From Botrimarina mediterranea (GTDB lineage Bacteria > Planctomycetota > Planctomycetia > Pirellulales > Lacipirellulaceae), in contig NZ_CP036349.1 in assembly GCF_007753265.1 (NCBI RefSeq), forward strand, positions 4,311,363 through 4,375,362: DNA of 64,000 nucleotides, written 5' to 3'. A program made the translations under genes and the position numbers. Of the stretch, positions 9,929 to 63,934 are shown piece by piece; the first letter of the stretch is position 1, and each line of letters opens with the position of its first letter. Under the pieces are notes generated by a model. It was not told where the DNA came from and did not search any database. It was given only the letters and a program-made list of their open reading frames with translations.

Positions 9929-10592
9929 GACGCATCAGGAGCGCCTCGACAGCTTCTATGGCGGCCAAGCGGACGAGTACGACGCGTTCCGCAAGAAGAT
10001 GCTGCACGGACGTGAGGCGCTGTTCGAGCGGCTCCCCGTGACGCCCGGCGGCTCGTGGATCGACATCGGGGCCGGCACCGCTCGCAACGGCGAGCTGTTG
10101 GGCGACCGCATCCATGAATACGGCGCGGTGACGTTCCTCGACTTGTCGAAGTCGCTGCTCGAAGTCGCCGACCGCCGCATTAAGGATTCGGGCTGGTCCA
10201 ACGCCACGACGCTCTGCGCTGACGCCACGGCGATCCCGCTGCCAGACGCGTCGCTCGATCTGGTGACGTTCACCTACTCGCTAACGATGATCCCCGACTG
10301 GTTCGCGGCGATCGAAGAAGCGCAGCGTCTGCTCAAGCCCGGAGGCGTCATCGGCGTCGTGGACTTCTACGTCTCGCGCAAGTACCCGGCCGACGGGCGG
10401 CGGAAGCACTCGTACTTCAACCGCAACTTCTGGCCGTACTGGTTCAACCACGACAACGTCCACCCGAGCCCCGACCACCTGCCGATGCTCGAACGGCGCT
10501 TCACCGCCGAGTTGGTGGAAGAGTCGCAAGGCAAGCTGCCGCTGCTGCCGATCATCCGCGCGCCGTATTACCGGTTCATTGGAAAGAAGTAG
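9867..10592 (+). CDS. btaB: BtaB: diacylglyceryl-homoserine N-methyltransferase
   Basis: SAM-dependent methyltransferase of 241 residues predicted to trimethylate diacylglyceryl-homoserine to DGTS. It shows the class I motifs WIDIGAGTARNGE (about residues 58-70), FLDLSKSLLEVA (motif II), ADATAIPLPDASLDLVTF (about 115-132) and LLKPGGVIGVVDFYVS. The ATG at 9867 lies inside the end of btaA; upstream reading in this frame is the btaA shadow. Its stop overlaps the first arm of a palindromic repeat. Assignment depends on the btaA-btaB pairing known from alphaproteobacteria. Confidence 0.84.
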   Translation: MGALSQLKTLYHLTLSPIRGETHQERLDSFYGGQADEYDAFRKKMLHGREALFERLPVTPGGSWIDIGAGTARNGELLGDRIHEYGAVTFLDLSKSLLEVADRRIKDSGWSNATTLCADATAIPLPDASLDLVTFTYSLTMIPDWFAAIEEAQRLLKPGGVIGVVDFYVSRKYPADGRRKHSYFNRNFWPYWFNHDNVHPSPDHLPMLERRFTAELVEESQGKLPLLPIIRAPYYRFIGKK

Positions 10593-10694
10593 GAAGTTGG
10601 AAGTGGGAAGTTGGCGCAAGCGATGCAGCGGCCATTACAACACTTCTAACCAAACTTGCTTCCTCCCACTTCGCACTTCCTACTTCCCACTTCC
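10586..10694. repeat. Word-type inverted repeat (GGAAGT words) bridging btaB and the next gene
   Basis: The left arm (about 10586-10612) is near-tandem GGAAGT/GGGAAGT. The right arm (about 10668-10694) is its imperfect reverse complement. The left arm contains the btaB stop codon, and the right arm ends two bases before the GTG start of the glycosyltransferase, so the element occupies the whole gap. Confidence 0.8.
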
Positions 10695-12416: not shown

Positions 12417-12497
12417 GGTGCATCCCCCAAGTCTAGCTCACACCCCGCCCCCGTCAGATTAGACCTCGAAGCCAAAAAACGGGCTATCGATTTAGTT

Positions 12498-12632
12498 GAA
12501 CCACAAAGGAACGAAGGAACAAAGGATTAAAATAGCCCGCGAATAGCGCGAATGGGCGCGAATAAGACAGTCCATTCGCGCTATTCGCGGGCCCTTAATA
12601 CTTTCCTTTGTTCCCTCGTTCCTTTGTGGTTC
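12498..12632. repeat. Nested word-type inverted repeat (AAGGAAC and GCGAATA words)
   Basis: Outer arms 12498-12525 and 12605-12632 (AACCACAAAGGAACGAAGG and complement) enclose perfect 21-base inner arms, 12535-12555 and 12572-12592 (GCCCGCGAATAGCGCGAATG and complement). The right end overlaps the stop codon of the DNA-glycosylase gene by two bases. Two different words are nested, as in the 6344 element. Confidence 0.9.
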
Positions 12633-13617
12633 ATTTATCAAGCTGCGCTGCGGTGAAGGATGAGCCTACGGTGTCGGCGTCCCAGGTCCAGGCTTCGCCG
12701 CGTTGGCTCTCGTAGTCGCGCCAGAGTTCGAACCAGTACGCCAGGAAGCGGTGCGGGCGGTAGCGCTCGTAATGGGTGATGATCTGTGGGTGCAGCGCGA
12801 GCGGGTTGACGGGTCGCTCGACGCCTTGGCGTTTGCAGTAGAGGCGGTAGGTTTCGGTGTCGATCGGCAGCTCGTCGTCGCGGTCGAGCAGCTGAAGTAC
12901 GTTCGCCGCCGAGTAGGGGCCGAACCCATCGAGCGACAGCAGCTTCTCGCGCAGCTCCTCGGTCGAGCGCTCCGGCGACTCGAACCAAGCGGCTTCGAGC
13001 TGGCCTTTGGCGAACAGCCGCGCGAGGCCGATGATCCGCTTGGCCCGATAGCCGACCCGACAGACTTTCTGTAGCCGCGCCGGCGTCCAGCGGGCGAGGC
13101 GCTCGGCCGAGGGGAAGGCGCCGCCGCCGACGCGCTCGACCAGCAGCTGGTTCATCCGCACCGTGCTCGGCCAGCCGACGTTGCAGCTGGTGATCGTCTT
13201 GACCATGTCCTCCAGCAGCGTCGCCGACCGGATCAGCCGGCCGTAGCCGCGGCGTTTGGCGGCGGGGAGAGCCCGGTGGAGCTGGCGGAGGTCTTTGTCG
13301 AGGCGGAGCATCCGGCCGATCGCCGCCCGCAGGGCCTGGCGGGCCGGCGGCGAGACGACCACGTCGCAGCGGACCCGCAGGGGCGCCCCCCGTCCGGCGG
13401 GTTGGTCGATCGTGGCGTGGAACCGCTCCTCGGGGAGACCGAACTCGGCGGCGTCGAACGATCGCTCCCAAGTGAACTCCTGAGGGCGCCAGCGGTTGGG
13501 CGCCAGCAGGAAGTAGCCGTACGAGCAGACTGCCGTGGGGAGCCACAAATCGGCGGGAACGGCGATCGACAGGCGGCTGGGGCGGGGCATTCGGGCCGAT
13601 TTTTGAGGGAAACTCAT
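12631..13617 (-). CDS. HhH-GPD base-excision DNA glycosylase
   Basis: Predicted to remove damaged bases from DNA. In 328 residues the N-terminal part (about 15-120) resembles the AlkA/OGG beta-domain. The helix-hairpin-helix is LLSLDGFGPYSAANVLQLL (about 233-251), followed by LPIDTETYR, which carries the catalytic Asp of the GPD loop. There is no FCL iron-sulfur Cys set at the C-terminus, so it is closer to AlkA/OGG than to EndoIII/MutY. Base specificity cannot be assigned. The stop codon lies in a palindromic repeat. Confidence 0.8.
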   Translation of the reverse strand: MSFPQKSARMPRPSRLSIAVPADLWLPTAVCSYGYFLLAPNRWRPQEFTWERSFDAAEFGLPEERFHATIDQPAGRGAPLRVRCDVVVSPPARQALRAAIGRMLRLDKDLRQLHRALPAAKRRGYGRLIRSATLLEDMVKTITSCNVGWPSTVRMNQLLVERVGGGAFPSAERLARWTPARLQKVCRVGYRAKRIIGLARLFAKGQLEAAWFESPERSTEELREKLLSLDGFGPYSAANVLQLLDRDDELPIDTETYRLYCKRQGVERPVNPLALHPQIITHYERYRPHRFLAYWFELWRDYESQRGEAWTWDADTVGSSFTAAQLDK

Positions 13618-50112: not shown

Positions 50113-50199
50113 TGTGGGAGGGGTCTCCAGACCCCGATTACGGTCTCCATTCCAAAACGGCATGGTGCGCCTCATCAGCGTCTGGAGACGCCTCCCACA
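50113..50199. repeat. Inverted repeat (TGTGGGAGG-GTCTCCAGAC)
   Basis: Arms 50113-50134 and 50178-50199 agree at 20 of 22 positions as reverse complements. It lies between the convergent pilin-like and kinase genes. Confidence 0.85.
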
Positions 50200-52293: not shown

Positions 52294-52441
52294 AGTGGGC
52301 GGTGGGCAGTCGGTAGTGGGCAGGAACACCTAGATTACTTCATCGCAAGGCTCGGAGGATGGCTAGCCGTCGAAAGCTGCCTCTGCGAAAATACCGGTCT
52401 CGCTCAAGAAACTGCCCACTGCCCACTGCTGACTGCCCACT
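52294..52441. repeat. Word-type inverted repeat filling the kinase-hisA divergent gap (GGGCAGT words)
   Basis: The left arm 52294-52323 is near-tandem GTGGGCAGT; the right arm 52412-52441 is its imperfect complement. The element begins six bases from the kinase ATG and ends one base before the hisA ATG at 52443, so both promoters must lie within it. Confidence 0.88.
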
Positions 52442-55665: not shown

Positions 55666-55763
55666 GTAGGGTCCGCTGAGCGGACCGTGGTTAACGGTGT
55701 CTGCTTCGAGCGTGTCGCAAGCAGATTCATGCTCTGTCGTGCGGTCCGCACAGCGGACCCTAC
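55666..55763. repeat. Inverted repeat (GTAGGGTCCGCTGAGCGGACCG)
   Basis: Arms 55666-55687 and 55742-55763 match at 21 of 22 positions; each arm is also self-complementary (GGTCCGC/GCGGACC). It starts five bases from the VWA-gene ATG. Confidence 0.9.
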
Positions 55764-55764
55764 C

Positions 55765-55849
55765 GGCGAGCCGGCGACGTTAGTCGTCGGTGGGCGCCAC
55801 GGAAAATCTTCTTGGCTAGTACACCGACGACTAACGTCGCCGGCTCGCC
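55765..55849. repeat. Inverted repeat with 28-bp perfect arms
   Basis: Arms 55765-55792 and 55822-55849 (GGCGAGCCGGCGACGTTAGT... and complement) are perfect over 28 bases. It adjoins the 55666 element and ends two bases before the sigma-factor stop. The two elements together fill the whole gap. Confidence 0.92.
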
Positions 55850-59604: not shown

Positions 59605-60348
59605 TCAAGCCGCGAAGGCTGCGGTGACGGGGGCATTGGCGGGGTCCTCGATCGTCGTCGGCAACCAGCCCGCTAGCATCGGCGCCGCTGCCAAGAACTT
59701 CTGGCAAGACTCGCTGAGCGAAAGGTGTACGCCGCGGGCCGCGTCTTCGTTCGGGCAGTGATTCACGATCACGCCGACACGGGCCGCGACGGCCCCGAGA
59801 CGTTTGAGGGTCAAGTAGCCATTGACGGTCGAGAGCCGATCACCACCAACGATCAACAGCGGCCTCGCGGCGCGGCTGGCGAGTTCCCTGGCCCAGAGCG
59901 TGTCGCCGACGCCCGCGTCGATGACGATCCAGCCGCCCGCGTCCTCGGTCCACTGACGCGCCGCCCGCAGCAGCCGTTTGGCGGCTTCACCGACGTACGC
60001 GCCCTCTCCCGGAGCCGGCGCCACACCGAGCTTCGCCGCCGTTGTGATCACCAGGCCTGCCGTTGGCGTTTCGTCGGCCGCCGCCATCACCGCCAAGTCA
60101 TTGCGCCCCGCGTGCGCGTCGATCGCCAGGACCGCCACGCCCTCGGGCTGGCTCGTCGAACGCGCGAGGTCCCGGGCCGTGGTTAAGGCGACAGCCGAGA
60201 CGCCGACGCCGCCCTTGGCGCCAAGCACGACAACGACGCGCTCGGCCGTCGGCGGCATGCCGGGCGCCATGCCTTCGGCGACGCGGCGCAGGTGGTTCGC
60301 CTGCTGGCCGTCACCAGAGTGATCTGTCGTTCGTCGAGGATGGCTCAC
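59605..60348 (-). CDS. FlhG/MinD-like ParA-family protein with altered Walker A
   Basis: SIMIBI-class NTPase-like protein of 247 residues, expected to partner FlhF in setting flagellar number or position. The deviant Walker A reads GAKGGVGVSAVA (about residues 43-54), in which the usual Lys after the second Gly pair (G-x-G-K-T/S) is Val. The switch region has AIDAHAGRNDLAVM, and IVIDAGVGDTLWAREL matches the Walker B position. The C-terminal 20 residues are Ala/Pro-rich. Start GTG at 60348 overlaps the flhF stop (GTGA). ATP hydrolysis may be lost. Confidence 0.78.
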   Translation of the reverse strand: MSHPRRTTDHSGDGQQANHLRRVAEGMAPGMPPTAERVVVVLGAKGGVGVSAVALTTARDLARSTSQPEGVAVLAIDAHAGRNDLAVMAAADETPTAGLVITTAAKLGVAPAPGEGAYVGEAAKRLLRAARQWTEDAGGWIVIDAGVGDTLWARELASRAARPLLIVGGDRLSTVNGYLTLKRLGAVAARVGVIVNHCPNEDAARGVHLSLSESCQKFLAAAPMLAGWLPTTIEDPANAPVTAAFAA

Positions 60349-61436
60349 GCAACCTCCTCGCCGAGCAGCCGCGCCGCCAGCGACTTCGCGTCGGCAAGGC
60401 GAATGTCTTCGGGGACGCTCTGGCCGTCGGTCAGGTAACTGACGGGGAGACCCGAATCCAATACCGGCGCCGCGGCGTGACCGAGCGATGGGGCCTCGTC
60501 GAGCTTCGTAAGCAGCAGCGACGTGGGCCGGACCGGGGCGAAGCGCTCCAGGGCGTCTCGCATACCACGCGCCGTGCCGGTGACGGTCGTTACGAGGTGC
60601 GTCTCGTCGGGCGACGCCGCGTCGAGCAGCGTGCGTAGCTCCTCAATGCGGTCGCCGTCGCGCGGGCTGCGTCCGGCCGTGTCGATCAACACCAAGTCGA
60701 GCGCCGCAAGTTTTGTGACCGCTCGCCGCATCTCTTCAGGCGTCGAGACCACTTCCATCGGCAGGTCGATGATCTCGGCATAGGTGCGGAGTTGTTCCAC
60801 CGCTGCGGTGCGGTAGGTGTCCACCGTCACGAGCCCGACGCGAGCGCCGTCGCGGAGCCGGTAATTGGCGGCGAGCTTGGCGAGCGTCGTCGTCTTGCCA
60901 ACGCCTGTCGCACCCACCAGTGCAACGACACGGCGGCCACCCCCCAGACGGATCGGCCCCGTAACAGCGAGCGACTCTCTCACAACGCCCTGCACAACGC
61001 TGCGGAAGTGCTCAACGCCATTGGCGCCCCCCGACAGCCGCGACGCCGCCTCACGCACGAGCGACCGCGCGAGTTCCGGCTGCACGTCCGCGGCGAGCAG
61101 GTCGCTACAAACTTGGAGCTGAGGGTCGTGGGTGATTGCGGATTGTGGATTGCGGATTGTGGATTGCTGCGGTGGCAAGGCTTCTTTCGCTTTCAATCCG
61201 CGATCCGCCATTCGCAATCCGAAATTAGGCGCCAGCCCGCTCCGCGCCGCTTGCTCCGCCAACGGCGACCGGTCCGGCGTCGCCGCGACCTCAACCGCTC
61301 GCCCCCGCAAGAACCGTGCGATCGGCCCCGCATTCACCTCGCGCGAGTGCAGTACGGCCGCCTGCGGACCAAACTCCGCACGCACCATCGCCAGGGCGTC
61401 GCGAAGCGTTCGGGCTCGGAAGGTCTTGATGTTCAT
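60345..61436 (-). CDS. flhF: Flagellar GTPase FlhF
   Basis: SRP-type GTPase of 363 residues that places the flagellum or its export gate. The N-terminal B domain opens MNIKTFRARTLRDALAMVRA. A variable linker (about residues 65-105) is followed by the NG domain with ALVGATGVGKTTTLAKLAA (P-loop near 170), VTVDTYRTAAVEQLRTYAEI, DLVLIDTAGRSPRD and LLLTKLDEAPSLG. The linker includes FGLRMADRGLKAKEA and STIRNPQSAIT, which are the translation of an inverted repeat rather than conserved FlhF sequence. Adjacent flhA and the flhG-like gene support the assignment. Confidence 0.93.
   Translation of the reverse strand: MNIKTFRARTLRDALAMVRAEFGPQAAVLHSREVNAGPIARFLRGRAVEVAATPDRSPLAEQAARSGLAPNFGLRMADRGLKAKEALPPQQSTIRNPQSAITHDPQLQVCSDLLAADVQPELARSLVREAASRLSGGANGVEHFRSVVQGVVRESLAVTGPIRLGGGRRVVALVGATGVGKTTTLAKLAANYRLRDGARVGLVTVDTYRTAAVEQLRTYAEIIDLPMEVVSTPEEMRRAVTKLAALDLVLIDTAGRSPRDGDRIEELRTLLDAASPDETHLVTTVTGTARGMRDALERFAPVRPTSLLLTKLDEAPSLGHAAAPVLDSGLPVSYLTDGQSVPEDIRLADAKSLAARLLGEEVA
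61135..61226. repeat. Word-type inverted repeat within flhF coding sequence (GGATTGC words)
   Basis: The left arm 61135-61166 is near-tandem GGATTGTGGATTGC. The right arm 61194-61226 is its imperfect complement. It lies entirely inside flhF without breaking the frame and encodes the variable linker. Confidence 0.85.
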
Positions 61437-61437
61437 T

Positions 61438-61528
61438 GGAAAGTTGAAAGGGGGAAAGTGGAATGGGGGATGAAGCGCAAGCGAACTCCTGACTCCGGAG
61501 ACTCCGCTTTCCCCTTTCCTCTTTCTTT
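61438..61528. repeat. Imperfect inverted repeat between flhA and flhF (GGAAAG words)
   Basis: GGAAAGTTGAAAGGGGGAAA near 61438 and CTTTCCCCTTTCCTCTTTCT near 61507-61526 are imperfect complements. The element spans the gap from one base upstream of the flhF ATG to the flhA stop codon. Confidence 0.65.
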
Positions 61529-63602
61529 ATTCGTTCACCACGCCATGCGTGACGAGCGTCGTGTCTCTAGTGATTTCATTGAAGCTCATCACTACCAACT
61601 GCGGCAGCGAGGTCTCGGTGAGTTGCTTGACGGCGGCGCGTACCTGGGGGCTCACCAGCAACACCGGGCTATGACCCTGGGTGGCGAGCTTCTCCGCTTC
61701 GGCGCCGATCGCGCGGTTGATCGACTCGATTGCCGTCGGCGCCAAGCGAATAAACAAGCCGCGGTCGGAGTGCTCGAAGCCCGTGCGGATACGGTCCTCG
61801 AGCGTCGGGTCGAGCGCAAGGACATGCAACTGCCCGTCGCGGTCGCGATACCGTGTGCAAAGCTGTCGCGCCAAGCGGTGGCGGACGTACTCGGTGAGCA
61901 GGATCGGGTCCTTCGACTTCGTCGCGTTGTCGCCGAGCGACTCGAGGATCGTCGCCAGTTGTCGGATCGAAACCTGCTCACGCAGCAGCATCTGCAAGAC
62001 GGTCTGCACCTCGGCGAGCGACATAACGCCCGGGATCAGTTCGTTGACCACCGCCGGCGAGGTCTGCTTCAACTCTTCCACCAGCGCCTTGGTGGCGTCG
62101 CGGGTGAGGACCTCGTCGGCGTGGCGGCGGCAGACCTCGGTGAGGTGCGTCGCCAACACCGCGCCGGGCTCGACGACCGTGTAGCCTTGCATCTCCGCTT
62201 CGTCTTGCTTGCTGTGGGCGATCCACAGCGCATCGGTGCCGAACGCCGGGTCCTTCGTCGGGATGCCATCGACGCGCCCGCTCGTCATCCCCGAGTCGAT
62301 CGCCAGCAACATCGCCGGCTGGATCTCCGATTGAGCGACCGGCATGTCGGCGATCTTGATGCGGTACTCGTTCTGACCCAGCCGCATGTTGTCGCGGATG
62401 CGGACCTTCGGCATCACTAGGCCCACCTCGCCGGCGATGTTGTGCCGCACCTTCTGGACGCGATCAAGCAGGTCGCCGCCGCGGTTGGGGTCCGCCAAGC
62501 GGATCAATCCAACACCAAGCTCGACCTCCATCGGATCGACCGCCAGGAAGTCCTCGACGCGTTTCTCCGCTGGCGCCTCATCCTTCTTGTCAGAATCGTC
62601 TTCCTGGGGACGCGACTGTTTCTTCTTCAGTGCTTGAGCGAGTCCGAGGCATGAGCCACCAAGCACCAGCAACGGGATTGTCGGCAGGTTGGTGAACACC
62701 AACACGCCAAGGAACGCCGCCGCCACGACGAGCGCCTGCGGACGGCTGAACATCTGATCGATGAACATGGCGGGCATGTTCGTCTTGCGGCTGCTACGCG
62801 TCACGAGCAAGCCGGCAGCGAGCGAAATCAAGAAGGCCGGCACCTGACTCACCAAGCCGTCTCCGATCGTCAGCCGAGTAAACAGGTCGGCCGCATCGGC
62901 GAACTCCATCCCCTCTTGGCCCACGCCAATCACCAAACCGCCGATGATGTTGATCACCGTGATGATGATGCCGGCCACGGCGTCACCGCGGACGAACTTG
63001 CTGGCGCCGTCCATGGCGCCAAAGAAGTCGGCCTGCTGAGTGATCTCGCTGCGGCGTGACTGCGCCTCACGCTCGTCGATAATGCCGGCGTTGAGATCGG
63101 CGTCGATCGCCATCTGCTTGCCCGGCATGCCGTCCAAGGCAAACCGCGCGGCGACTTCCGAGATACGCGTGGCGCCCTTCGTGATCACCATGAACTGAAT
63201 CACGATGATGATCACGAAGATAATCAGACCGACAACGATCCGGTCGCCCGCCACGAATTCGCTGAACGCGGTGATGACCCCGCCCGCGGCGTCCATCCCT
63301 TTGCTGGTCGCCTGCGTCAGGATGAGCCGCGTTGTGGCGACGTTGAGCACCAATCGAGCGAGCGTCGTCGCTAGCAGCAGCGACGGGAAAACGCTGAACT
63401 CCAGCGGCGTGCGGACATAGATCGTCGTCAGCAGGATGATCACCGACACGGTGATGTTCGCCGCCAAGAAGACGTCGAGCAGGAACGACGGCAACGGGAC
63501 CATGACCACCAGCACGCTGGCGATCATCGCCACCGGCAAGAGGAGATCGCCTAACCGACCCCAGGGGCCGGAAAGCGGGTTGTCGTCCTTCGTGAGCGCC
63601 AT
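61527..63602 (-). CDS. flhA: Flagellar export apparatus protein FlhA
   Basis: Export-gate membrane protein of the flagellar type III system, 691 residues. Eight transmembrane segments occupy the N-terminal half, with the family signatures RTPLEFSVFPSLLLATTLAR, GRFALDGMPGKQMAID-like RFALDGMPGKQMAIDADLNAG, and the long LPLLPTIPLL-type helix near 335. The cytoplasmic domain runs from about 355 (EVELGVGLIRLADP; MPKVRIRDNMRLGQNEYRIK) to the C-terminal LVTHGVVNE. The ATG at 63602 has AGGGA five bases upstream. It heads the flhA-flhF-flhG arrangement. Confidence 0.95.
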   Translation of the reverse strand: MALTKDDNPLSGPWGRLGDLLLPVAMIASVLVVMVPLPSFLLDVFLAANITVSVIILLTTIYVRTPLEFSVFPSLLLATTLARLVLNVATTRLILTQATSKGMDAAGGVITAFSEFVAGDRIVVGLIIFVIIIVIQFMVITKGATRISEVAARFALDGMPGKQMAIDADLNAGIIDEREAQSRRSEITQQADFFGAMDGASKFVRGDAVAGIIITVINIIGGLVIGVGQEGMEFADAADLFTRLTIGDGLVSQVPAFLISLAAGLLVTRSSRKTNMPAMFIDQMFSRPQALVVAAAFLGVLVFTNLPTIPLLVLGGSCLGLAQALKKKQSRPQEDDSDKKDEAPAEKRVEDFLAVDPMEVELGVGLIRLADPNRGGDLLDRVQKVRHNIAGEVGLVMPKVRIRDNMRLGQNEYRIKIADMPVAQSEIQPAMLLAIDSGMTSGRVDGIPTKDPAFGTDALWIAHSKQDEAEMQGYTVVEPGAVLATHLTEVCRRHADEVLTRDATKALVEELKQTSPAVVNELIPGVMSLAEVQTVLQMLLREQVSIRQLATILESLGDNATKSKDPILLTEYVRHRLARQLCTRYRDRDGQLHVLALDPTLEDRIRTGFEHSDRGLFIRLAPTAIESINRAIGAEAEKLATQGHSPVLLVSPQVRAAVKQLTETSLPQLVVMSFNEITRDTTLVTHGVVNE

Positions 63603-63934
63603 ACGTTCCCTCGCAGCGCAGCGACCCTCTTCCCTGAGAGCCACACCGCCATCGCGTCTGCCTCATTGCCTTGCCCCTGGTAGAAGAGCAGCCGAGAAGC
63701 AGAGCGGCGGAAACCTAGAGAAACCCTCAAGTTGGGGGAAGGGAGATGTCGATGAGGGCCCGCTCAGTGGCTTCGCAGGTTCACGAGTCGCTGTGCATCA
63801 CTCGCAACAAGTTTCGCCCGGATAGGCAACCCGCCGGCTGCTAGCATCGCTACCCCGGGGGTGCAATTGCTAGCAACAATCAGCAAGTGAAGTTAGCATG
63901 GCTCGCATTCCCCTGCTCTGGAGAGGTCGCGTCC
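63603..63934. other. 332-base divergent region upstream of flhA
   Basis: No gene is supported. It should contain the flhA promoter and that of the rightward gene. A perfect 10-base palindrome TTGCTAGCAA lies at 63867-63876, with two looser TAGCA copies 25-35 bases on either side. I did not find a convincing sigma-54 or sigma-28 promoter by eye. Confidence 0.4.

Follow-up and report, generated by a model that had tools for sequence, protein, structure and literature searches.

An in-frame palindrome of dispersed seven-base words in the linker-coding part of flhF from Botrimarina mediterranea

In the planctomycete Botrimarina mediterranea, flhF, the gene for the flagellar biosynthesis GTPase FlhF, contains a palindrome built of seven-base GGATTGC-type words that recur throughout the genome, lying in an intact reading frame at a place where the sister species B. 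colliarenosi carries a different palindrome. We regard it as very probable that this dispersed palindrome arose within the linker-coding DNA in the species' own lineage and that it persists there as passive filler. A copy would have arisen in the linker-coding part of the gene with a net change in length that keeps the frame, and the linker, being disordered and free to vary, would allow the element to be read through without furnishing any new functional domain. The element probably persists because the frame is kept, because no stop interrupts either arm in any of the six frames and because the surrounding linker is disordered and tolerates variation. The arms owe this to seven and three being coprime, which makes a perfect array spell out one cycle of seven residues whichever frame is read. 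The element is presumably translated, in a FlhF that probably works, and the array would then be harmless to its host.

The window is the whole 64,000-nucleotide stretch of contig NZ_CP036349.1 (assembly GCF_007753265.1) that was analysed, and coordinates are counted from its first letter. The features that concern us are as follows.

60345 to 61436, minus strand: flhF, flagellar biosynthesis GTPase FlhF; intact frame of 363 amino acids with TIGR03499 and SRP54 GTPase domain matches.
61134 to 61226, minus strand: linker-coding stretch of flhF (coordinates by arithmetic), residues 71-101, within the run 67-101 of pLDDT below 50.
61134 to 61167, plus strand: left arm, tandem GGATTGC/GGATTGT of period 7 (14); the minus strand codes QSTIRNPQSAI, residues 91-101.
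61168 to 61193, no strand assigned: spacer, 27 nt if the left arm ends at 61166; unlike the spacers of the other copies compared.
61194 to 61225, minus strand: right arm, its words diverged (complementarity with the left arm 81%); residues 71-81 of FlhF, NFGLRMADRGL, are coded here.
61437 to 61526, no strand assigned: flhA-flhF gap, holding a second word palindrome, of GGAAAGT type, with arrays at 61438-61470 and 61503-61525.
61527 to 63644, minus strand: upstream neighbour, used for synteny, presumably flhA, to judge by its sequence; the codon-usage caller starts it at 63602.

The original prediction placed a palindromic repeat of GGATTGC words in frame inside flhF at 61135-61226, and the repeat is indeed there: two arms of 32 nt (61135-61166 and 61194-61225), 81% complementary and separated by a 27-nt spacer, are made of GGATTGC and GGATTGT words, with a period of 7/14 at 61134-61167 and of 7 at 61194-61225 (Tandem Repeats Finder), inside a gene open over 363 amino acids. 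Both peptides that the repeat was said to yield, STIRNPQSAIT and FGLRMADRGLK, occur in the translation, the final K of the latter falling in the spacer. Across the whole 93-nt element one of the six frames meets a stop, and across the arms none does. Six-frame openness as a special reason for capture was dropped, since 18 of the 25 words listed read through every frame without a stop and random words do so in ~49-70% of cases, which leaves no clear excess. By itself the palindrome is only moderately unlikely, because 2 of 2000 codon-shuffled versions of flhF hold an equally strong inverted repeat; its period-7 score of 18.2 was reached in none of 1000 shuffles (best 11.8). What settles that it is more than chance is the genome-wide word family: GATTGYGGATTG matches the 5.87-Mb genome exactly at 36 sites, and a reversed control does so at one.

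Merged by hand, the 36 sites make 23 places, 18 of them intergenic and five inside open genes according to a codon-usage gene caller whose gene edges are rough and which shortens flhF at its start. A copy of the family consists of a spacer peculiar to its locus, flanked on both sides by arrays of seven-base words of GGATTGC type that converge on it, and under the word rule of our spacer test 14 of the 23 places have no clear second arm. The 12-mer GATTGCGGATTG was found in 48 of the 59 relatives searched, mostly at low copy number. A literature search, conducted mostly without subscription papers, returned no account of GGATTGC words or palindromes in planctomycetes; the word family in this phylum is new, as are the sharing of one linker by unrelated repeats and the strictness of array polarity, both described below.

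The gene that houses the palindrome bears the marks of a working one. FlhF scores 198 bits against TIGR03499 (cut-off 174.15) and also matches the SRP54 GTPase domain. Compared with B. colliarenosi, the B domain has a dN of 0.047 and a dS of 0.82 and the NG domain a dN of 0.167 and a dS of 0.83; in the linker identity is down to 19% and no meaningful alignment can be made. In an AlphaFold model drawing on nine aligned proteins (mean pLDDT 81.8), pLDDT stays below 50 for at least three residues in one place only, residues 67-101, and the element's residues, 71-101, fall inside it. Across relatives, FlhF linkers vary in both length and sequence. The low dN/dS of both domains, the 19% identity of the linker and its pLDDT below 50 thus make flhF look functional and place the element in a free segment, predicted to be a variable, disordered linker between the B and NG GTPase domains. 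That the repeat keeps the reading frame, as had been proposed, agrees with the open 363-residue frame and the low dN/dS on either side of the linker.

Fifty FlhF genes were compared, that of B. mediterranea included and one (L047) truncated before the linker. The linker peptide is not conserved among them: NPQS occurs in B. mediterranea and in the FlhF of one relative (G046) alone, and in the latter it comes from a one-armed word array, by eye of AATCC words, beside what looks, again by eye, like a diverged relic of another repeat, the CCTCCCTCGCAGGGAGGGG family. None of the remaining 49 genes has the palindrome itself, which is either missing or represented by a palindrome of a different sort. 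Alignment of flhF from related Pirellulales, the check proposed at the outset, shows a different palindrome in B. colliarenosi and none in two congeners (G002 and G003), where no linker palindrome of such strength was found. Inverted repeats in the linker score 17.0 in B. mediterranea and 20.5 in B. colliarenosi, no other linker measured exceeds 13.5, and the NG part reaches at most 13.0; a further gene (L041, from genome G004) scores 30.5 when its whole open segment is used, its linker window being misplaced by a frame change. The simplest reading of these alignments is that the flhF capture was gained after the split from B. colliarenosi.

The event was not a clean insertion relative to the congeners, because the linker of B. 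mediterranea is shorter than those of both congeners aligned, B. colliarenosi and G003, the latter retaining in its longer linker a segment that resembles those of other relatives. No clean empty site at flhF was found among the relatives compared. A replacement, or an older deletion, would therefore have to be added to the account of how the shorter linker came about; that of G002, which looks shorter in alignment and holds no palindrome, suggests that linkers of this kind can shorten without one.

In B. colliarenosi Pla108 the linker holds an unrelated in-frame palindrome, GCTGTTTGACAAGGTTG...CAACCTTGTCAAACAGC, coding LFDKVVHSPQVINLVKQ. Its 14-base core, GTTTGACAAGGTTG, has 14 matches in that genome, read by hand as eight places, none in G000 and G003, and one each in G017, G019 and G020; another copy lies in frame within an AAA-domain gene not far away. 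Seven of the eight places fall within ~11 kb around flhA and flhF (G001:C1:1607578-1618260), as if the core had spread locally. The linker of G017 contains a CCTCCCTCGCAGGGAGGGG element, whose family has 39 sites in that genome (up to 2 mismatches) against one for its control. In G004 the reading frame changes between the B and NG domains just where a CCGCTCGTTGAGCGG palindrome is present twice; as that assembly is fragmented (420 contigs), the change may be an assembly error. The flhF of G062 (L092) was not counted as an array, having three scattered words, two of them in the linker. From these comparisons, the FlhF linker seems to be a spot that collects unrelated genomic repeats.

How the array came to be there is less certain than its position. 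We infer that it was built on site, and growth in place is favoured by the unrelated spacers and the one-armed arrays. The chief competitor is a finished mobile unit, similar to a REPIN or to the palindromic elements of Rickettsia (RPE), pasted in after being moved by a RAYT-type Y1 transposase, an account that we hold possible though doubtful. Other palindromes in the genomes of B. mediterranea and its relatives do share whole units, and spacers of REP controls are alike (mean local score 13.3 against 5.6 shuffled, four sequences), whereas the GGATTGC spacers are on average barely more alike than when shuffled (6.7 against 6.0, with 8 of 23 copies usable under a word rule that misses much of the diverged flhF right arm). 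The best pair of GGATTGC spacers, at 13, does exceed the best of 30 shuffles, at 11; this pair holds leftover pieces of words. Small motifs (CGCAAGCG and AGCGAA) were seen in a few spacers, in small counts. The 14 places with no clear second arm argue against a finished unit, and the absence of GTAG and CGTC tags from both strands of 61121-61240 against one of REP type. RAYT-type genes are nonetheless present, with five Y1_Tnp matches in B. mediterranea, nine in B. colliarenosi and one in G002, a genome without GATTGCGGATTG. Over 23 genomes, hand-entered counts of Y1_Tnp matches and word sites give a weak rank correlation (rho 0.42, P 0.048), but these genomes are related by descent and one with 73 sites (G014) also has 60 control matches. 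With only this weak correlation in its favour, RAYT was not retained as the mover.

It is unlikely that the palindrome is itself functional, whether as an mRNA hairpin in flhF or as a selected linker peptide. Such a role would sit poorly with its absence from, or difference in, the other 49 FlhF genes, with a linker devoid of conservation, and with a single Rfam match that, at 25.2 bits against a gathering score of 100, we take as chance. Two observations made elsewhere lean the other way: the arms of a GGATTGC element in a FadJ-like gene have stayed complementary in two species whose proteins are 82% identical, which could hint at upkeep instead of passive decay, and the strict rule of position and strand obeyed by intergenic arrays (22 of 22) may point to a role at the level of RNA in those places.

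That rule is simply stated. In the 18 intergenic elements (L001-L030, L080, L081), every one of 22 arrays lies within 50 nt of an open reading frame. Upstream of a start the G-rich strand is the antisense one and downstream of a stop the sense one, so that each array points away from the nearest frame, although arrays belonging to one element are not independent in this count. By eye, six elements (L001, L008, L014, L015, L026, L081) have arrays that reach the start codon and overlap it with a word as CGCAATG. In 304 kb of B. mediterranea, a sample that includes stretches picked for their word sites, all 21 word palindromes had a purine-rich left arm, as did 41 of the 53 inverted repeats of other kinds; for 80 kb of B. 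colliarenosi (G001) the figures were 2 of 2 and 11 of 22, and G003, sampled over 80 kb, contained no word palindromes.

One conceivable origin for such regularity, to which we assign a low probability, is that the repair of DNA breaks left the word palindromes behind as scars: a telomerase-like or other templated activity would add purine-rich seven-base words to the 3' strand at each DNA end, and the two ends would then be joined head to head, much as telomeres fuse. If true, it would explain the inward-facing words, the unrelated spacers and the one-armed arrays, as well as the different words at the flhA-flhF gap and the in-frame capture in permissive segments. The purine-rich left arms and the uniform polarity of the arrays are as it would have them, but purine-rich left arms are common in other inverted repeats too, and the polarity may have an explanation at the RNA level. 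Gaps between genes speak on both sides. The flhA-flhF gap contains GGAAAGT words in B. mediterranea and GGATTGC words in B. colliarenosi (L032, upstream of flhF), whereas two other gaps keep, by eye, identical words in both species. The two flhA-flhF spacers have 11 bases in common, in opposite orientation.

Two further readings can be given almost no weight. An ordinary low-complexity coding sequence with a chance likeness to a repeat, which the two matching codon shuffles would allow, is hardly credible where the same words recur in the same convergent arrangement through the genome and the period-7 score escapes every shuffle. An assembly artefact or decaying pseudogene, suggested by the coincidence of linker palindromes and frame change in the 420-contig G004, is just as implausible for a one-contig assembly with flhF open over 363 amino acids and low dN/dS in both domains.

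Capture within genes recurs, the GGATTGC family lying in frame in other proteins too. Near the C-terminal end of a FadJ-like enoyl-CoA hydratase / 3-hydroxyacyl-CoA dehydrogenase is a GGATTGC element that, among 21 aligned sequences, only B. mediterranea and B. colliarenosi possess. An AMP-binding enzyme (L113 1150-3210, plus strand) has undergone at least two different repeat captures at two sites. At one, an insertion of GGATTGC words with a REP-like repeat is common to the same two species and absent from the other usable rows (20 of 21 were usable; L166 proved to be the wrong reading frame and was not counted). At the other, B. mediterranea and G003 have a CCCCTCCC-type element, B. colliarenosi has GGATTGC words, and two further sequences (L154 and L164) have repeat-like remains. 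A signal-peptide-like protein with no Pfam match contains an element in B. mediterranea only, among the 12 orthologues listed, its own included, and a type I specificity subunit has a one-armed array. An array of ACGACGGAC words (L089/L114) was rejected as an in-gene case, because the true start of the gene is probably downstream of it.

These cases bear on two broader claims of the original prediction. That such elements insert or grow inside genes and become protein where variation is tolerated is upheld by the recurrent captures and the variable linker, though not as a clean insertion at flhF, where the linker is shorter. That absence from sister species marks a recent gain holds for flhF, as the simplest reading, and fails for the FadJ-like gene and one AMP-binding site, at which the capture is, on these alignments, older and common to B. 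mediterranea and B. colliarenosi.

Palindromes inside genes and inverted pairs of heptamers are already known kinds of repeat. PMC4692102 describes heptameric arrays of GGGAATC and GGGGA(C/T)T in Xanthomonas and Nostoc, with 70 and 75 convergent inverted pairs in two Xanthomonas. They lie mostly within 50 bp of open reading frames, and their G-rich strand tends to be antisense upstream of starts and sense downstream of stops, all this as a preference and not a rule. Most are intergenic, the intragenic share being 11% and 7% in two xanthomonads and larger in Nostoc (68% intergenic), and 83% of the repeats are kept in the same gene context between two Xanthomonas species (PMC4692102). The family described here likewise consists of seven-base tandem words that are dispersed, mostly intergenic and bound to the same pattern of position and strand (22 of 22), but its word, GGATTGC, has no GGG tracts and its phylum differs (compared with PMC4692102). 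Captured peptides seem untreated in that account, whose main text does not contain the term 'amino acid' (PMC4692102). In the flhF arrays no GGG tracts of G-quadruplex type were found, the words having GG only. The flhF element is thus a relative in manner, one that works in a similar way and is not a shown member of such families, because it has neither GGG tracts nor REP tags.

As to palindromes within genes, those of Rickettsia were reportedly treated by Ogata in 2000 and 2002 and by Claverie and Ogata in 2003; RPE are not known to be made of tandem heptamer words. PMC3733652 and PMC6649704 describe RPE as captured in frame in ordinary proteins, with activity kept and the identity of the repeat lost over time. 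The palindrome described here similarly lies in frame in genes of known function (flhF, 3-hydroxyacyl-CoA dehydrogenase and an AMP-binding enzyme), a likeness drawn by description alone and across different phyla. Genes of several species contain REPs bearing GTAG or CGTC tags, over half of them inserted as dimers or groups and coding for 20-30 amino acids, and GTAG repeats are reported from the Planctomycetes group (PMC3733652). The flhF element has no such tag and is built of word arrays, although the genome does share RAYT genes (the five Y1_Tnp matches) with REP systems. The closest parallel to the shared linker of FlhF is recB, in which two Xanthomonas species have different REPs at about the same site (PMC3733652). 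Enterobacterial RU elements are small repeats with open frames within annotated genes, MITE-like and with units of 103-168 bp (PMC2759123), in contrast to the word arrays of flhF. In Nematomorpha mitochondria, perfect inverted repeats lie inside functional genes and both arms encode conserved protein regions (PMC6649704), whereas the flhF arms lie in a variable linker.

The case shows DNA repeats, selfish or by-products, entering coding sequence in a free-living bacterium, and offers a natural comparison in which one linker has been filled by unrelated palindromes in sister species. Repeat traffic between intergenic DNA and linkers becomes countable and datable because the words are recognisable and are present in 48 of 59 relatives of the order. 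The strict polarity provides a handle on how heptamer arrays, which have been known in bacteria for a long time, are made; it deserves following up, as does the recurrence of unrelated palindromes in a single linker.

Several other repeats were recorded along the way. Word palindromes employ many words besides GGATTGC (GAAGTTG, ACAAAGGA, AGTGGGC and others), as at 10586-10693, 12497-12633 and 52294-52441 of the window and in L079-L090. Inverted repeats of REP type occupy intergenic gaps at 50113-50199 and 55666-55849, where the second pair fills its gap almost exactly, and the type found at 50113 recurs in L081, L083, L085, L087 and L090.
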